Source: Paludibacteraceae bacterium
GTDB lineage: Bacteria; Bacteroidota; Bacteroidia; Bacteroidales; Paludibacteraceae
DNA length: 42,392 nucleotides
Direction of reading: 5' to 3'
NCBI GenBank assembly: GCA_017417025.1
Contig: JAFPZY010000038.1
Coordinates: forward strand, 1-42,392
In this document: one piece after another, positions 33,692 through 41,211 of the stretch
How the letters are laid out: each line of letters begins with the position of its first letter
Position numbering within the stretch: the first letter of the stretch is position 1
Position numbers and translations under genes: made by a program
The notes under the pieces: generated by a model
The model's input: only the letters and a program-made list of their open reading frames with translations
Told to the model about the DNA's origin: nothing
Databases searched by the model: none

Positions 33692-34579
33692 ATGGAAAAA
33701 ACGATTAATCAGCAACTCGATGGGTTGTTCAGAGACTGGGATAAAGCACTTAGAACGTATGTCGGCTATGAGCCAGATAATTTTACTAGGGATGGTCTGA
33801 TATATAAATATAAACCTAAATGGGGATTTGAAAAAGAATACCCTACATTGGCTGGTACAGATACAGACCTTTTGGTGAATGGCTTATGGAATAAATCTTC
33901 AATTAAGATTGTATTTTTGCTGAAAGATAAGCCTGACGAGTCTGGTGGTGATGTGCGCCAATGGTTATTGTATGAACATAATAATGGAAAGTGTAGCCGA
34001 GAGCTTCAAGGAGGTAAGGTCGGACGTATAGGCTTCTTACCTACTATAGCACGAGTAATATATGGTATTTATAAATCGACTCCGGATAATTTAATTACAT
34101 TTGGTGAGGTCTCGGGAATTGGTATGGGTGATGTACGAGACATGTGGAATTCTCTGGATGGCTATCCATATGCACTTGTTGAGACAAAGAAGATGGCTGG
34201 TATTCCATACGTCAGGCCACAGCAAATCAAGGAGGCACTACTTCGAGACTCTGAATTTCTCAAGAAAGAACTTTCGTATCTAAATCCAAATGTATTTGTT
34301 TGCACACACCCGAGTATTTATAAATTTGTACAAGATTTCTTGGCGGAGAAATATAAGGATGTACAGGATAACCAATTCGTGAAAATTCCGAATGAATCAA
34401 AACCAAGTGGATTTGAAGAAAGTATTCTCCTCCATAGGCCTTCTAAATCTGTAATTTTGTTGGGTTATCATCCGAGTTATTATAGACTATCTCGAAAAGA
34501 AAGGTACATGTCATATATGTCGCATTACCATGCCTTTGTTCAGTCCTCCTATTACAACGAATTTTTCCAACAAAACTAA
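33692..34579 (+). CDS. Hypothetical protein, possible uracil-DNA-glycosylase-like fold
   Basis: The 295-residue soluble protein shows three elements in the order seen in the UDG superfamily: an early strand with loop IKIVFLLKDKPDESGGD (about 72-88), a strand plus helix LNPNVFVCTHPSIYKFV (about 197-213), and a late VILLGYHPSYYRLSRKE (about 250-266) resembling the HPS motif that contacts DNA. The first loop lacks the classic GxxPG, so catalysis is not assured. A strong AGGAG lies 5 bp before the ATG. The gene is AT-rich like the rest of the island. The UDG reading is an inference from short motifs. Confidence 0.6.
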   Translation: MEKTINQQLDGLFRDWDKALRTYVGYEPDNFTRDGLIYKYKPKWGFEKEYPTLAGTDTDLLVNGLWNKSSIKIVFLLKDKPDESGGDVRQWLLYEHNNGKCSRELQGGKVGRIGFLPTIARVIYGIYKSTPDNLITFGEVSGIGMGDVRDMWNSLDGYPYALVETKKMAGIPYVRPQQIKEALLRDSEFLKKELSYLNPNVFVCTHPSIYKFVQDFLAEKYKDVQDNQFVKIPNESKPSGFEESILLHRPSKSVILLGYHPSYYRLSRKERYMSYMSHYHAFVQSSYYNEFFQQN

Positions 34580-34610: not shown

Positions 34611-34689
34611 CATAATGTAGTAATTTTGCAGCGTGATTCCAAAGCGAGTCACGCTGTAACTTTATTAACTACTATATTGCTACATTATG
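34611..34689. repeat. Nested inverted repeats covering a start codon
   Basis: CATAATGTAG (34611-34620) is the exact reverse complement of CTACATTATG (34680-34689), whose last three bases are the ATG at 34687. Inside lies a hairpin CAGCGTGA/TCACGCTG (34629-34636 with 34649-34656). A TAATTTTG at 34621-34628 resembles a -7 box without a convincing -33. Confidence 0.7.
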
Positions 34690-35076
34690 GAACTACTTTG
34701 TGTTGCTGTTGAACCGTACTTGCCGGAAAGTAATACGCATTTTTTCCGTCCAAGCGACAAGTTTAATTTTGAATTAGACTTATGGGAAACTGATTTTGAA
34801 GATCCTGAGGAAACAGCCCTCAAAATCGCCGACCTCCGCTTTGTGCTAGAACGAGGCTTTAACTTGAAGAAACATGTTATGGACTACATGAACTCGCTCC
34901 CGCTTGTTCCTGGATATCAAGAACCTATCCGTTCTGCCTTTAGGCGCTACATTAAGTTCATGCGTACCGGCGTTGGAAAATCCGAGCGTGGTTACAGAGA
35001 TGCGTTTGTTGATGCCCTTGGCACGGATGAAATGGTTGAATTATTTTGCAATGAAGTATTACTCTATAAAAAATGA
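34687..35076 (+). CDS. Hypothetical protein, 129 residues
   Basis: No family is recognised. The protein is acidic in its first half (FELDLWETDFEDPEETALKI) and helical and basic in the second (RSAFRRYIKFMRTGVGKSERGYRDAF), ending LLYKK. Its start codon lies in the right arm of an inverted repeat. Its TGA overlaps the ATG of the next gene by four bases, so the two are coupled, an arrangement often seen for antitoxin-toxin or immunity pairs, but there is no motif to support that. Confidence 0.65.
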   Translation: MELLCVAVEPYLPESNTHFFRPSDKFNFELDLWETDFEDPEETALKIADLRFVLERGFNLKKHVMDYMNSLPLVPGYQEPIRSAFRRYIKFMRTGVGKSERGYRDAFVDALGTDEMVELFCNEVLLYKK

Positions 35077-35807
35077 AAGATATGAAAGCAATAGAAAAAA
35101 TTTTGCAATCGGATGCCTTGAAATTTATTGAAGATGAAATCCTATCTATTGATAGTTTTGGCTATGCCGAAAAGGATATCTATGCGATGGGACACCTGCT
35201 TCGGGCTCGAAAGAAGTTACTTGATTCCGTGTTTGAACTCAATGATGAAACGCTATCTTTATTAAATGATTTTAATGAGCGTTTGACTTTAGAACTCCGT
35301 TCCGCTCATCAAAAGACAGTTGATGCGTTTAATAAAACATGTGCACAATATAAAGATTGTACTATAAAAGTTGAAGGTAGAGTCTATATGTCCAACCGTT
35401 TGCCAACGTTGTACCCTGCTCAATATGGTCGAAATGATACGGTGTGGAAAGCTTTATTGGACGGCAGCTTTCAACCTTTATATAAAGATGGGGTTAATTC
35501 CAATCCTATACTTATTTCAAACTATGGACATAGTGAACCAAAGTCGGTAAATTCTGTTCTTTTTATGAATGATATGGATTCAGAGTTATATTTGCAGGAA
35601 ACAGACCCTACATATTCTGGCGAACCAACAAATAATTGGAATGAGCACTTAGACCAAGAACTCACTAAAGACATGCACCTTGTGTATGCATTTCACAATC
35701 TTTGGGAACATGTGGGAGGTTTTTCTATTGTTGATCTTATCTTCGTTAGAGATTTTGAGACCTCCATTGATATCCATATTGGACAAAAAAATCATAAGTG
35801 CTCATAA
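35073..35807 (+). CDS. Hypothetical protein, 244 residues
   Basis: No family is recognised. Residues about 1-95 are helical (KAIEKILQSDALKFIEDEIL, LNDFNERLTLELRSAHQKT) and the rest mixed, with aromatic and Asn/Asp-rich segments such as NILISNYGHSEPKSVN-like strands and NNWNEHLDQELTKDMHLVYAFHNLWEH. There is no signal peptide or membrane helix. It starts four bases inside the upstream gene. No terminator is obvious before the next promoter at 35855. Confidence 0.65.
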   Translation: MKDMKAIEKILQSDALKFIEDEILSIDSFGYAEKDIYAMGHLLRARKKLLDSVFELNDETLSLLNDFNERLTLELRSAHQKTVDAFNKTCAQYKDCTIKVEGRVYMSNRLPTLYPAQYGRNDTVWKALLDGSFQPLYKDGVNSNPILISNYGHSEPKSVNSVLFMNDMDSELYLQETDPTYSGEPTNNWNEHLDQELTKDMHLVYAFHNLWEHVGGFSIVDLIFVRDFETSIDIHIGQKNHKCS

Positions 35808-35854: not shown

Positions 35855-35886
35855 CTTGCATATTTCAAAAAAAAGCACTACCTTTG
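35855..35886 (+). promoter_or_regulatory. Promoter of the exonuclease-DUF262-DUF262 operon
   Basis: CTTG (35855-35858), 20 bp, TACCTTTG (35879-35886). It yields a leader of about 70 nt before the exonuclease ATG and makes the three following genes a separate transcription unit. Confidence 0.7.
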
Positions 35887-35961
35887 CTTCGTTAAATCTC
35901 ATTCCGCACATAGAAACGAAGAAACATTTTAATTCATCTATACAGGAAAGGCACTTGGGGT

Positions 35962-36483
35962 ATGAAAGATTTTGTAGCAATAGACTTTGAGACCGCTAAC
36001 GGCAAGCGCAGCAGTATTTGTTCCGTGGGTGCAGTCGTTGTGAAGAACGGAGAAATAGTTGATTCCTTCTATTCTTTGGTAAAGCCGATGCCGAACTACT
36101 ATGCATGGTTCTGCCAAGAGGTGCACGGCTTGGGTTACTGCGACACGGACGATGCCGACTTCTTTCCTGATGTATGGACCAAGTTGCAGAAAAAAGTTCA
36201 TGCCTATTTCCCTTACATAGAGGATGGCGAAGTGCCTTTTGTTGCGCATAACGCACGATTTGACGAGGGCTGCTTGCGTGCAGTGTTTGCGGCATACGAA
36301 ATCGCGTATCCTTGTTATGAGTTCCGCGATACACTCTATGCCTCGCGGCAGCATTTCGGCAACTCATTGGAAAACCACCAACTGCACACTGTTTCTGCCG
36401 CATGTGGCTACGATTTAACCAATCACCACCACGCACTTGCCGATGCCGAAGCCTGCGCATGGATAGCAAGAGAAATATTATAA
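35962..36483 (+). CDS. DEDDh 3'-5' exonuclease (DnaQ-like)
   Basis: The 173-residue protein is one compact exonuclease domain. Motif I is VAIDFETAN (D8, E10), motif II VAHNARFDEG (D101), and motif III HHALADAEA (H156, D161), so all DEDDh catalytic residues are present. It should cleave DNA or RNA 3' ends with two metal ions. It lacks a polymerase-binding tail and stands as the first gene of a promoter-led unit, 15 bp before the DUF262-HNH gene. That placement suggests a role with that nuclease rather than replication proofreading. Confidence 0.88.
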   Translation: MKDFVAIDFETANGKRSSICSVGAVVVKNGEIVDSFYSLVKPMPNYYAWFCQEVHGLGYCDTDDADFFPDVWTKLQKKVHAYFPYIEDGEVPFVAHNARFDEGCLRAVFAAYEIAYPCYEFRDTLYASRQHFGNSLENHQLHTVSAACGYDLTNHHHALADAEACAWIAREIL

Positions 36484-36498
36484 AAAATTAAACATACT

Positions 36499-38337
36499 AT
36501 GAGTGAACTTGTTTATTCTATCAAACAGATTTTTAATGCAGGGAATAAAAGTGCATTAACGGACAATAAAGCATCTTTCTACTACATTGCTCCTTACCAG
36601 CGAGGCTATAAATGGGAGTCTAATTCTTCATACGCACAAGTGCCCCAAATGCTTATTGATATATACGAAGCATTTGTGTATGGCACTACGGAGTATTTTT
36701 TACAATATATCACCGTAAAAAAGTTAAAACTGGATGACAATGGCGATGTGCTTGAAGTAATTGACGGTCAACAACGGCTAACAACACTTTCCTTATTGCT
36801 TTCGCGAATCGTTGTGAGAAATTCCGATTTGGAAAATATCAGCTATAAGCGCCTTCAGTATTTTCGCTATGATGGCGATATATTCGCATCGCTACAGATT
36901 CCTGATTCAGAAGAGGAGGATGAAAATATCATTCATCAGGATAGGTATTATATGGTGAAAGCAGTTCGCACGATAGATAAATTCTTGAAATTATTAGAGG
37001 AGAATGACAAATTGGAAGCATATTACCATTATTTGTTGGACTCCGTTAAATTGATTTTCAACATAGAGGATGAGAATACCAATTCAGAGGAAGTCTTTGA
37101 GAATCTGAATAATAACAAAGTACCTCTTACCAACCAGTATCTGATAAAAGGCTTATTGCTGACCAAAGCGGTCAATCGGACAACGTCATTTAATCGCACA
37201 CTGTCATACAAGGAGATATTGGATCAACGGACGGTCATGGGGCGGGTATGGGATGAAATCAATGCATGGATTTCCCAGCCGGAAATAGCCCATTTCTTTT
37301 TCGCGACAAAAAAGAAAGAGAATCCCAACGGCATCGAAAAACTGCTCGAAGTGGTACTCCGGAGAATAGAAAATACCCAAACCGATACAGGTGAAATAGA
37401 AGATTCGCTTCTTCAGCAATATCGTCTATTATTTGATCCTCAAAGCCGGAATGTTCAGCCATCGATGTATGAACTTTTCAATAAATTCAACCGCATCATC
37501 CGCGATGAGAAAACGGCGTTCGATGTGCTGAATCTGATCAAACATGCGTATCGGGCATTGTATAACATATGGTATGGAGATATTGATTTCTACAACTTGT
37601 TCGGATATGTCCGCTTTGCGAAATCGCAGCAATACAATATCTCTTGGACCGATGAGGTTATTTGGAAAGACAGAGCCGTGGTAAAAAAGGATTTGGCGAA
37701 GAGGGTGTTGAAGATTATACCGGATTTGAAGCATTCACAAACAGAACTTCGTTATGATAACAACCAAAACAAACTGACAAACTTGTTGTTATCCTTTAAT
37801 GTGTTCCTGGAGCAGGAAGAGAAATTTGATTTTTACCAATATGATAGTGAGAATTGGACTCTGGAGCATTTATCACCCCAGAATCCGAAAGGAGACATCA
37901 AAATCCCTCACAATCTGGTAACCTATGTATTGGGAAAACTGCCGGAGTCATTAGAACAAAGCAAAAGGGCGGACCTGGAAGCCAAACTTCTCAATGGCGA
38001 GGCGATATCGGTGGATGACCTCCCGTTCCTGTACGACTCCGAAATAGATGAGCATGTAATGGGCAATATGGCACTATTGGAAGGCGGAGACAATAGTGCT
38101 GTCAGCAATAACCCGTTTATCGTCAAGCGGAACATTATCATATCCCGGCGAAATAAAGGAAGTTTTGTACCGTATCACACGATTGCGTTGTATGAAAAAT
38201 CATTGGATATGAAAGAAGAAAAAGGGTTCACTCCGGATCTGTTCAGATGGGACATAAACGATATTACTGTTCATGAACAATGGATGAGGCAACGAAACAA
38301 AGAGATTATTGAACAACTGAAAAAACATTTGGCTTAA
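36499..38337 (+). CDS. GmrSD-like protein: DUF262 + DUF1524 (HNH) domains
   Basis: The 612-residue protein has the DUF262 ParB-like NTPase signatures PYQRGYKW (32-39), VIDGQQRLTTLSLLLS (87-102) and FENLNNNKVPLTNQYLIKG (200-218). The C-terminal DUF1524 HNH nuclease shows WTLEHLSPQNP (453-463) and MGNMALLEGGDNSAVSNNPF (521-540) followed by KR. This is the domain order of fused GmrSD, BrxU and SspE enzymes, which use NTP binding to control cleavage of phage DNA with modified bases or in phosphorothioate hosts. It is 15 bp from the exonuclease gene and 2 bp from the second DUF262 gene. Target specificity is unknown. Confidence 0.88.
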   Translation: MSELVYSIKQIFNAGNKSALTDNKASFYYIAPYQRGYKWESNSSYAQVPQMLIDIYEAFVYGTTEYFLQYITVKKLKLDDNGDVLEVIDGQQRLTTLSLLLSRIVVRNSDLENISYKRLQYFRYDGDIFASLQIPDSEEEDENIIHQDRYYMVKAVRTIDKFLKLLEENDKLEAYYHYLLDSVKLIFNIEDENTNSEEVFENLNNNKVPLTNQYLIKGLLLTKAVNRTTSFNRTLSYKEILDQRTVMGRVWDEINAWISQPEIAHFFFATKKKENPNGIEKLLEVVLRRIENTQTDTGEIEDSLLQQYRLLFDPQSRNVQPSMYELFNKFNRIIRDEKTAFDVLNLIKHAYRALYNIWYGDIDFYNLFGYVRFAKSQQYNISWTDEVIWKDRAVVKKDLAKRVLKIIPDLKHSQTELRYDNNQNKLTNLLLSFNVFLEQEEKFDFYQYDSENWTLEHLSPQNPKGDIKIPHNLVTYVLGKLPESLEQSKRADLEAKLLNGEAISVDDLPFLYDSEIDEHVMGNMALLEGGDNSAVSNNPFIVKRNIIISRRNKGSFVPYHTIALYEKSLDMKEEKGFTPDLFRWDINDITVHEQWMRQRNKEIIEQLKKHLA

Positions 38338-38339
38338 CC

Positions 38340-40742
38340 ATGAAAACAGGAAGATATAGTTTGTTTCAATTATTGAACAATCCGGAGATAGAGCAGATTA
38401 TCATTCCGGAAATACAGCGGGACTATGTTTGGGAAAAGCAGAATGTCCGTGGTTTGTTGGAGTCCATCAAAAACAAATACGATGCCAAGGAGAATGTAAC
38501 CTTGACCATTAATGCCGGGGATGCGCCGCTATCTGGCAGCATGAATGCATATCTCTCCAAAGAATATGAGAAACTGGTGTATAGTACCAAAATAGGCATC
38601 ATCTATGCCTATCATGATCCCAATTATCCGGGCAAATTCTTTTTAATAGACGGTCAGCAGCGCATTACTACGTTGTATTTGCTGCTTATTGCACTTTTTA
38701 AAGAACAACCTGATAGATGGAATGAATTTAAGGAGCGGTATTTTGCACAACAGTTGCCGAAACTGGATTATCGCGTCAGGGAAATAACCCATGATTTCTT
38801 GATTCAATTGATAGAGCACGAATTATCACACCAAAACATATCTTTTGATAATAGTGTCAATTACTATAAGGTGATATATGATAAGGACGAAACCACAAAA
38901 AACATGTGGCATAACTACCACATTATTTGTGATTTTGTGCAAACCGTCCATGACATTTCTTCCTTTACGGAGTATCTGGAGCACTTTGTGGAATTTAATT
39001 TCTTTGACACCAATATCAGCGCGCAGGGAGAGCGGTTGTATCTCTATATGAACAGCCGCGGAGAGAATTTGTCCTATCAGGAAACAATCAAGTCCATCAT
39101 CATTGGCAAAGGCAACCAAAAATTGGAATACGGCAGGAAATGGGAAGAATGGCAGGACTTTTTCTGGCAAAATAGAGGAAACGAGAATCCCAATGCAGAT
39201 AAAGGATTCAAGAACTTTCTGAAATGGGCGGTAATACTGCATATTTGTTCTCATAGCGACACGGTCAAAAAAGCACCTAAAATGGTGAATGACAAAAAAC
39301 AATCGGAGGTGGAAATCATCGAAGATTATATTCGTGTGGAGGCGTCGGAGAGTGAAAAATCTACGCAGCAATATCGCGACATCCGCGCATATATTAAAGA
39401 AAACCAATCGTTTGACGCCGTTTGGTTGGAGCAAGTAATGCGGGCTATATACCAACTGAGTTCGTTGTCCGTAAAAGAATTCTTCGTAGATGACTTATGG
39501 CTCTCCAGGGAGAAATCAACGATCGAATATGTCGTATTGCTGCCACTCCTTCGTTACCTTATGCTTTTCTCCGAAAAGGAAACCGTTTATCTCAAGCGGC
39601 TGGCGTATTTCCTGAAAAACAAGAGTTATAATGACACCCACGCCAAGGCTCCTGACAGGGCGGTGTATTTAATGCTTACAATGGTAAACGCCATTCCGGA
39701 AAGCGGAGATGTATTTGAAACGCCGACCGAGAAATTCAAAAATGTGTTTGCCGATATCGACAAGGAAGTCGCAACAATGCTCTTGAATACGCCCCAAAGG
39801 CAGGAATGGGAAAGCCAACTGGCGAAGTTCGTACAGAATGACCTGCTCGAGAAATTTTTGCAGGGCAACTGTAAGTGTCTTTTGAAGATGTCTGAATCCC
39901 CAGATGATTTTGCAACGTATTTAGAGTCTTTTGTAACGGAGATCCTGACGAACAAAGATACTCGTCAATTGAGACAGAAACTGCTCCGATACGGCGCATT
40001 CCCTATCGAATCGGAAGGCGGTTCAGGGAACCTGACCAACAAATGGTTACCTAGGTATAATTTTATATCGAATGATGATGATTGGCGTAAATTACTCAGC
40101 CAGGAAATCTTTATTGAATCGCATTTGAGACCTTTCTTAACAGGACAAACAACTGATTGTGAACCCGATAAGTGGATGGTTCCTTTCTTGGAACACATAG
40201 ATTTGTTTAAAGGTTCCTTTAAGTATTTGTGGGAGGATAGTGATATCTCTCCGCGAATCATACTGCTGGACTCCGTGCAGGCTGGCGAACGCAAATCGTG
40301 GCATGTGGAAAACATACTGCTGAAAAAACGCTTGAAGCAGGAGCTCCTTTACGCTTGGAACTGGAATTATCAAACCACCGTCATCCCGTTTGCGCTTAAT
40401 GCCGATAACGAAATAGAAGAATATAATGAAAAGGGAACGGATGTACCCGAAAACCAAAGAACAAATTATTTTATGGATGTCATCTTTGAATGGCAGCAGG
40501 ATGGCGAGAGCAAGTGGTATGTATCGGTAGGAAAAAGGAATTATATACAGGAGATGCAGCCCGATGAGCATATAAGTGAATTATTCAAACTAACCAAGAA
40601 CAAGCATTATGACTACATAGAACCCATATACACACATGATCCGTTACTTTCAATGGATAAGAACATCGAGCAATTGTGTAAGGAATTGATTTCTTTTAGA
40701 ACAAAGCTTGTTACAGACCATCTTTCCCAGATGTTTGCGTAG
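38340..40742 (+). CDS. Large DUF262-domain protein, no visible HNH
   Basis: The 800-residue protein starts with a DUF262 domain: IPEIQRDYVW (22-31), FFLIDGQQRITTLYLLL (100-116) and LYLYMNSRGENLSYQETIKSI near 232-252, a variant of the family's third motif. The remaining about 500 residues are not recognised; no DUF1524 EHIxP or GNxxLL block is seen, so it probably cannot cut DNA alone. The start follows the upstream stop by 2 bp, so stoichiometric production with the HNH partner is likely. It may be the sensor or regulatory half of the pair. That division of labour is inference. Confidence 0.85.
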   Translation: MKTGRYSLFQLLNNPEIEQIIIPEIQRDYVWEKQNVRGLLESIKNKYDAKENVTLTINAGDAPLSGSMNAYLSKEYEKLVYSTKIGIIYAYHDPNYPGKFFLIDGQQRITTLYLLLIALFKEQPDRWNEFKERYFAQQLPKLDYRVREITHDFLIQLIEHELSHQNISFDNSVNYYKVIYDKDETTKNMWHNYHIICDFVQTVHDISSFTEYLEHFVEFNFFDTNISAQGERLYLYMNSRGENLSYQETIKSIIIGKGNQKLEYGRKWEEWQDFFWQNRGNENPNADKGFKNFLKWAVILHICSHSDTVKKAPKMVNDKKQSEVEIIEDYIRVEASESEKSTQQYRDIRAYIKENQSFDAVWLEQVMRAIYQLSSLSVKEFFVDDLWLSREKSTIEYVVLLPLLRYLMLFSEKETVYLKRLAYFLKNKSYNDTHAKAPDRAVYLMLTMVNAIPESGDVFETPTEKFKNVFADIDKEVATMLLNTPQRQEWESQLAKFVQNDLLEKFLQGNCKCLLKMSESPDDFATYLESFVTEILTNKDTRQLRQKLLRYGAFPIESEGGSGNLTNKWLPRYNFISNDDDWRKLLSQEIFIESHLRPFLTGQTTDCEPDKWMVPFLEHIDLFKGSFKYLWEDSDISPRIILLDSVQAGERKSWHVENILLKKRLKQELLYAWNWNYQTTVIPFALNADNEIEEYNEKGTDVPENQRTNYFMDVIFEWQQDGESKWYVSVGKRNYIQEMQPDEHISELFKLTKNKHYDYIEPIYTHDPLLSMDKNIEQLCKELISFRTKLVTDHLSQMFA

Positions 40743-40800: not shown

Positions 40801-41211
40801 TATGTAGAGAAGAAAAGTAGAACAGTAGTTCCGCTACTTCAGATTCTCAATAATCTAGTGAAGAGAGGTGTTGAAGTGCGACTGATTCATGCCAAAGAAC
40901 CCGGACAACCATTCAGGGAAGACTTTGATAAATACCCAGCACTATGGGGAGGCATGGAGCGCCGTTTGTGTCCGCGTGTTCACATGAAGATTATAGTAAT
41001 GGATAGTGAATTGGTATATATTGGTTCTGCCAATCTTACTGGAGCCGGTATGGGTATGAAATCTTCTGCTAATCGCAATTTTGAAGCTGGTATCTTGACT
41101 GACGAGCCGGGATTCATTGATTCTGCTATGAGTCATTTCGACTCTGTGTGGGAGGGCAATCATTGCAAGAAATGCGGACGAAAAGAGTTTTGCGGAGATA
41201 GAATAAAGTAA
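40801..41211 (+). pseudogene. 5'-truncated phospholipase D-like (HKD) protein
   Basis: From about 40804 the frame encodes an uninterrupted PLD C-terminal half: VPLLQILNNLVKRGVEVRL, then HMKIIVMDSELVYIGSANLTGAG (the HxKxxxxD catalytic motif) and NFEAGILTD, ending with a four-cysteine stretch HCKKCGRKEFC. A GTG at 40858 could start a 117-residue product, but recognisable family sequence extends about 18 codons further upstream with no start codon and a stop at 40798. The first HKD motif is missing. I therefore read it as a decayed remnant of a full-length PLD nuclease or helicase-associated protein at the end of the island. Confidence 0.65.

Follow-up and report, generated by a model that had tools for sequence, protein, structure and literature searches.

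Three tightly packed genes in a Bacteroidota genome, one for an exonuclease and two for proteins with a DUF262 domain, raise the question of whether they make up a single defence system or a known kind of protein pair behind a gene that is inherited on its own. The locus belongs to Paludibacteraceae bacterium (assembly GCA_017417025.1) and lies in a stretch of 42,392 nucleotides (contig JAFPZY010000038.1), the whole of which was analyzed and is referred to as the window. The genes, designated A (exonuclease), B, and C, occupy window positions 35962-40742 on the + strand, in this order. They are ATG reading frames with no internal stop, and the gaps are 15 base pairs (bp) between A and B and 2 bp between B and C. 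A preliminary description made from the DNA alone regarded them as one three-gene system containing a DUF262 pair for which it had no name. The comparisons reported here favor another answer: B and C are likely a GrwAB-type pair preceded by an exonuclease header that can be exchanged, rather than two parts of a co-inherited three-gene system. The core is apparently of a known kind, here in Bacteroidota, and the variant is the header, statistically linked to the pair and apparently inherited separately. The seemingly unnamed operon is placed by this reading in a named, testable class. Numbers beginning with L and G denote loci and genomes.

The DUF262 pair and its relatives

Gene B (36499..38337, + strand) encodes a GrwA-like protein of 612 amino acids (aa). 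In Pfam, a DUF262/GmrSD_N domain (2.3e-23; 36556..37158, +) and a DUF1524/GmrSD_C His-Me nuclease domain (5.4e-7; residues 417-548, 37747..38142, +) were found in it. The motifs QR, DGQQR, and FENLN are present, and the residues H457, N523, and N532 were invariant in 17/17 aligned B proteins. Gene C (38340..40742, +) encodes a GrwB-like protein of 800 aa with GmrSD_N alone (7.8e-27; residues 9-254; 38364..39101, +) and with the motifs QR and DGQQR. The DGQQR motif, which the preliminary description had placed in both proteins, was seen in 17/17 aligned C proteins and 16/17 aligned B proteins, the exception (L011) having no N-terminus. Pfam agreed with the earlier account also in that DUF1524 is fused to DUF262 in B and missing from C. 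The remaining ~540 residues of C had no match in Pfam (E up to 1) or NCBIfam (E up to 0.1). A PDB search with C alone found no sequence, and with a profile of 15 C proteins the best stretches fell inside the DUF262 part; no fold could be assigned to the C-terminus from these sequence searches.

Relatives of the pair were collected with C: 26 stretches matched the search pattern, and nine of them encoded a relative, at eight distinct loci. A homologue of B lies directly upstream of the C homologue in 8/8 of these, and B directly precedes C also in the 15 of 76 loci collected around A (see below) that hold both. The closest relative, L006, is 91% (B) and 92% (C) identical to the window pair. Distances among B proteins and among C proteins were strongly correlated (Mantel r 0.97; 0/2000 permutations as high; n = 16, namely 15 loci of the A-centered set plus L206), also when three loci with divergent A were left out (n = 13, r = 0.98). 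This co-divergence argues for a pair, in which B would act with C rather than as a single chain. By these comparisons B and C form one unit, as had been supposed when the genes were described as GmrSD-type, and the gene order in the relatives agrees.

The domain plan of the pair matches that of GrwAB, which was reached via a review (PMC12409362, available in part). In the available text of PMC12137116, GrwA is the product of the first gene and has DUF262 and DUF1524, and GrwB, the product of the second, has DUF262 and, after it, several domains of unknown type. Neither protein is dispensable, and the two suffice in V. cholerae, where grwAB adjoins a Shedu gene. According to the same text, the targets are phages with sugar-modified hydroxymethylcytosines or 7-deazaguanines plus some Markadamsvirinae, and variants at R81, H431, N521, and N530 of GrwA and at R86 of GrwB were inactive. 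In the window, likewise, B combines DUF262 with a DUF1524 domain carrying the catalytic H, N, and N, and C has DUF262 and a long C-terminus with no DUF1524. The gene order is the same, the genes are adjacent, NTPase and nuclease residues are present, and the two catalytic asparagines are spaced by 9 in both GrwA (N521, N530) and B (N523, N532). The window pair differs in its occurrence in Bacteroidota, in the DEDDh gene in front, and in an apparently truncated PLD gene behind.

With a plan that matches GrwAB, the pair is not of a nameless kind as the preliminary description had it, and TgvAB is a second pair of this kind. As described in the accessible part of PMC11411939, TgvAB needs both of its DUF262 proteins, one of which has DUF1524, and is embedded in a type I restriction-modification (RM) operon. 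The window pair shares the two DUF262 proteins, one carrying DUF1524, but the gene order is opposite (the DUF262-only gene is first in TgvAB, B is first in the window), and membership was ruled out on this ground. No hsd family was found among the 29 window open reading frames (ORFs) scanned with Pfam; the type I-embedded setting occurs in relatives and not in the window. Pairs in the TgvAB order also lie behind DEDDh genes, in L103 and L109. At L109:8085-12094, WYL-DEDDh is followed by two such proteins in TgvAB-like order, one with DUF262 and a C-terminal DUF7834, the other of the DUF262-GmrSD_C type.

HsdR-like genes were found in 9/26 loci outside the A-centered set (L007, L009, L011, L012, L013, L207-L210), all nine with an HsdM-like gene as well, and in none of the A-centered loci. 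Pfam confirmed HsdM and HsdR in L009, L007, and L210, and HsdS in L009 and L007. In L007 and L009, the GrwAB-like pair is located between hsdS and hsdR, a TgvAB-like setting with the opposite DUF262 order. According to the available text of PMC4619093, type I RM genes are enriched in the vicinity of GmrSD genes. GrwAB-type pairs thus occur in several settings in Bacteroidota: some adjoin type I RM genes, some follow a DEDDh header, and some have neither in the sequence at hand.

The single-chain enzymes GmrSD, BrxU, and SspE share the domain plan of B. A profile of 9 B proteins matched SspE (1.3e-14), the DUF262 structure 9jfl (3.9e-16), and, weakly, BrxU (7p9k, 0.022). Unlike these enzymes, B is accompanied by C, whose divergence runs parallel to its own, and neither a phosphorothioation (sspABCD) nor a BREX family was found in the Pfam scan of the 29 window ORFs. 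PADLOC matches of B and C (HEC-05, HEC-06, Orf5, SspE) span mainly the DUF262 part and are not decisive. Among the B homologues, those of L105, L111, and L112 have 896 aa; in L111, DUF262 starts near residue 290 after a long N-terminal extension, and an AbiE pair lies in front.

Onto the observed architecture, residues, synteny, and pattern of divergence (B with C, not A with B), the functions of NTPase, modification sensing, and cutting are transferred by analogy. As in GrwAB, TgvAB, BrxU, and SspE, the DUF262 domains of B and C would bind and hydrolyse nucleoside triphosphates (NTP) and read modified phage DNA. Sensing by DUF262 would allow B to nick or cut the modified DNA with its His-Me (HNH) domain, and the long C-terminus of C probably supplies recognition or assembly. 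By the same analogy, the window pair probably cuts chemically modified virus DNA. The exonuclease, as an exchangeable helper, would most likely trim 3' ends or clear fragments made by B.

Inheritance of the exonuclease gene

Gene A (35962..36483, +) encodes a DEDDh exonuclease of 173 aa (Pfam: RNase_T, 3.5e-13; Rv2179c-like, 1.4e-17), which resembles PolC/DinG-type DEDDh exonucleases in sequence searches. PADLOC matches of A to 'PDC-S48' and 'DEDDh, CRISPR-associated' were read as general DEDDh similarity. Upstream of A lies a promoter-like box of the TAnnTTTG type (TACCTTTGC, 35879..35887, +), which we take to be the Bacteroidota -7 promoter box. By pattern count, TANNTTTGC is enriched in the window (32 matches vs 7.0 expected). 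Reading frames and motif count agree with the earlier account of three intact same-strand genes at 15-bp and 2-bp gaps with such a box ahead, and A, B, and C may be co-transcribed, in what looks like one operon.

Homologues of A were present in 90/150 genomes of the family. In total, 99 places were analyzed and 13 were left out (fragments or matches in longer frames; 9 of them at >=50% identity). The close set comprised the 76 of 99 places with >=50% identity, the window copy included. Neighboring genes were counted in an A-centered set, also of 76 loci: 74 of the 76 close places (all but the two partial places, in G319 and G364) plus L166 and L167. Contig ends shorten many stretches (24/76 with fewer than six genes downstream, 14/76 with fewer than four upstream), and the neighbor counts are therefore lower bounds. 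A DUF262 gene was found within six downstream same-strand genes of A in 21/76 loci, and a C-type gene in 15/76 (19 and 13 of 74 without L166 and L167).

The divergence of A follows that of neither B (Mantel r = 0.05, p = 0.33; with close A only, n = 13, r = 0.22, p = 0.06) nor C (r = 0.15, p = 0.14). At the 12 other loci with a close A in this comparison, identity to the window protein is 61-70% for A, 22-27% for B, and 16-23% for C. No A homologue was found within the 18 kb of L006, which holds the closest pair, or in the fetched stretches of 6 further relatives of the pair; in L009, a longer homologue lies ~3 kb upstream. Eight genomes outside the family that have C-type genes were searched with A, and an A homologue occurs somewhere in seven of them and beside the pair in one (G682). 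A is apparently inherited separately from B-C. This co-divergence test separates the core of a system from its habitual neighbors.

These observations bear on the reading of the locus as a dedicated three-component system, in which C senses, B nicks, and A is the essential effector that enlarges nicks to lethal gaps. The adjacency and close packing of A-B-C would suit it, and DUF262 lies directly after A in 8/76 loci (7/74 without the two chosen loci, L166 and L167). The active site of A is complete, as had been described, and each of its five residues (D8, E10, D101, H156, D161) was invariant in 76/76 aligned sequences, the window copy counted. A tight operon also occurs in another family: in G682 (locus L206), genes for AAA, DEDDh (39% identity to A), B, C, and WYL follow one another with gaps of -1, 1, -11, and 2. 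But 55/76 A loci have no DUF262 gene in six same-strand downstream genes (24 stretches are shorter), and GrwAB of V. cholerae works with two proteins (PMC12137116, available text). Because A does not co-diverge with B or C and is missing near the L006 pair, the co-inherited three-gene system proposed in the preliminary description was rejected as the best reading, and a dedicated three-component system is considered unlikely.

The exonuclease as a probable header

The exonuclease is nonetheless linked to DUF262 genes beyond chance, as had been suspected. Within 10 kb of the best 150 GmrSD_N places, 21/76 close A genes were found, compared with 0.77 expected under uniform placement (2.8 Mb), and 19 of these precede the DUF262 gene on its own strand. 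As a null model, uniform placement is weak, and a second defence family, the type I methylase N6_Mtase, was therefore used as a control with an equally long list: 0/76 close A genes lie within 10 kb of its best 150 places. Within 25 kb, the counts were 2/76 for N6_Mtase and 22/76 for GmrSD_N. Tandem DUF262 pairs had a DEDDh gene (>=30% identity) within 10 kb in 12/24 cases, 11 of them upstream on the same strand, and single DUF262 places in 10/102, all upstream on the same strand. C-type genes of the family (profile A3, >=130 bits) had A within 10 kb in 16/29 cases and none in 13; in 14 of the 16, A was upstream on the same strand (G340 has two copies, of which the downstream one was counted). 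Since 8/15 profile rows came from A neighborhoods, this fraction is biased, and the argument relies instead on the count with the best 150 GmrSD_N places. The statistical link of the exonuclease to DUF262 genes is real, but the partnership is a looser one. In the accessible text of PMC11706625, DEDD diDNases of Gram-positive genomic islands adjoin phage-defence genes in many, not all, loci. They resemble A as DEDD-superfamily genes near phage defence and differ in their hosts and in that A of the window matches PolC/DinG-type DEDDh exonucleases.

Clustering in islands, with A a mere neighbor that has no functional tie to B-C, is judged quite unlikely against this enrichment (21 vs 0 of 76) and its one-sided placement. 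In its favor, A lies beside apparent housekeeping genes, namely a LeuA-like operon (L119, L121), sugar-epimerase and glycosyltransferase genes (L131), and a PIF1-type helicase gene (L101). The preliminary description had held that an exonuclease next to unrelated genes at all loci would argue against one system; A was found so at some of the loci and not at every one. Near-identical A genes also front different cargo. On the A tree, 9 changes were needed between the DUF262 label (21 rows) and WYL-only (14 rows), with 41 rows uncounted; at least 6 of the 9 are forced by well-supported branches, and the number is close to that for shuffled labels, which gave a mean of 11.0 changes (71/500 as low as 9). 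Recurrence with a divergent A in another family speaks against mere clustering. The second locus with divergent A, L166, has the order WYL, DEDDh, B, C and was chosen for that proximity; with divergent A in both G682 and L166, the association of DEDDh gene and pair appears to have originated, or been kept, on more than one occasion.

A regulator of the WYL-WCX type (assigned by Pfam in two members) was found immediately upstream of A in 24/76 loci and within four genes in 31/76. The gap to the 24 adjacent genes was <=10 bp in 21, with a 4-bp overlap in 11. The cargo behind other A loci included AbiE, Fic/RhuM, IetA-like AAA, or PDDEXK_4 genes, and at L118:1651-11259 the genes behind a WYL-DEDDh header encode a PLD-SNF2 helicase, a YhcG PDDEXK nuclease, and a type IIG-like methylase. 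The L118 set is another candidate defence cassette. These arrangements suggest that A is most likely part of a header, often a WYL regulator plus a DEDDh gene, and that various defence cassettes are gained and lost downstream of this header. BrxR/CapW-type WYL regulators are similar in that WYL genes precede a variety of defence loci, among them those of type IV enzymes (PMC9122601, available text). In the Paludibacteraceae loci, the WYL gene often overlaps the DEDDh gene or lies <=10 bp from it, and the window has none. In a literature search of partial coverage, with supplements outside its scope, no paper tying a WYL-DEDDh pair to DUF262 pairs was found; the main texts of PMC12137116, PMC4619093, and PMC9122601 do not contain the word 'exonuclease'.

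The WYL factors PafBC and DriD bind single-stranded DNA (ssDNA), and a drop in ssDNA deactivates PafBC, according to the available parts of the sources. A joint claim of low probability could be built on this: WYL-DEDDh would be a portable control cassette, in which WYL switches the operon on upon ssDNA from infection or restriction and DEDDh destroys that ssDNA, which would both complete the breakdown of the cut phage DNA and end the alarm, and GrwAB pairs, TgvAB-like pairs, AAA/IetA-like genes, and helicase-YhcG-methylase sets would plug in behind. The least probable alternative is that A serves the WYL regulator alone, removing the ssDNA or oligonucleotides sensed by WYL and resetting the operon, and that A of the window was left after WYL loss: the close WYL-A spacing, the ligands of PafBC and DriD, and the small share of loci with DUF262 directly behind A would fit, but ssDNA as the ligand of these WYL-WCX proteins is extrapolated from PafBC and DriD, the window has no WYL gene, and 45/76 A loci have no WYL gene in four same-strand upstream genes (14 stretches are shorter).

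Several points weigh against the reading of B-C as a GrwAB-type pair behind an exchangeable header. Membership in GrwAB is proposed from architecture, gene order, and residue pattern. The FxxxN motif of GrwAB appears as FENLN in B, but at the corresponding site C has YLYMN (YxxxN). The Mantel tests (B-C, A-B, A-C) were computed with species history left in. No listed A lies within 10 kb of 12 of the 24 tandem pairs or of 92 of the 102 single DUF262 places, and L166 and L167, both with divergent A, were picked for their nearness to DUF262 genes. The tight operon with a divergent A in L206 suggests that in some cases A may belong to the system proper, and the header of the window is incomplete, there being no WYL gene. 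Under the GrwAB-type reading, the header raises the question of whether a helper exonuclease widens or regulates type IV restriction.

Surroundings of the locus

The three genes first described are present as stated, and a PLD-domain ORF behind C had been overlooked. This PLD-family nuclease ORF (40858..41211, +; 117 aa; Pfam and homologue alignment) begins with GTG at about residue 54 of a 170-aa homologue in L123. Same-frame similarity is seen already from residue 36 of that homologue, and the gene therefore looks 5'-truncated. Homologues of 170 aa lie behind DUF262 pairs in L114, L116, L123, and L126. A PLD gene and a DUF262 gene occur together among the six downstream same-strand genes in 9/76 A loci (the window and 8 others), and the PLD gene is behind the DUF262 gene in 8 of these 9.

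In 1-kb windows, the guanine plus cytosine (GC) content is about 0.36-0.46 over ~31-42 kb of the window, with 0.36-0.45 from 32 kb on, and 0.56-0.58 at 28-30.5 kb, which is consistent with the low-GC stretch being an acquired island. A phage or plasmid origin was rejected: C had no match in 50,697 phage records, and the 5 matches in 72,556 plasmid records each cover <=31% of C. In the last 1.2 kb of the window, there was no Rfam match at gathering score, and a 5S rRNA fragment seen by eye was not confirmed.

The upstream genes at 33692-34579, 34687-35076, and 35073-35807 had no Pfam family. The 295-aa product of 33692-34579 has homologues in six fetched loci (L112, L113, L114, L138, L152, L154), and gene 35073-35807 has homologues in 2 fetched loci. 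In the same genome (G000), the second DEDDh copy (L101, G000:C48:7644-8156), close to the PIF1-type helicase gene, is 64% identical to A and has no DUF262 gene within six downstream genes. The genome also has two further GmrSD_N loci, C4:14948 and C16:30974, with open frames of 617 and 417 aa.

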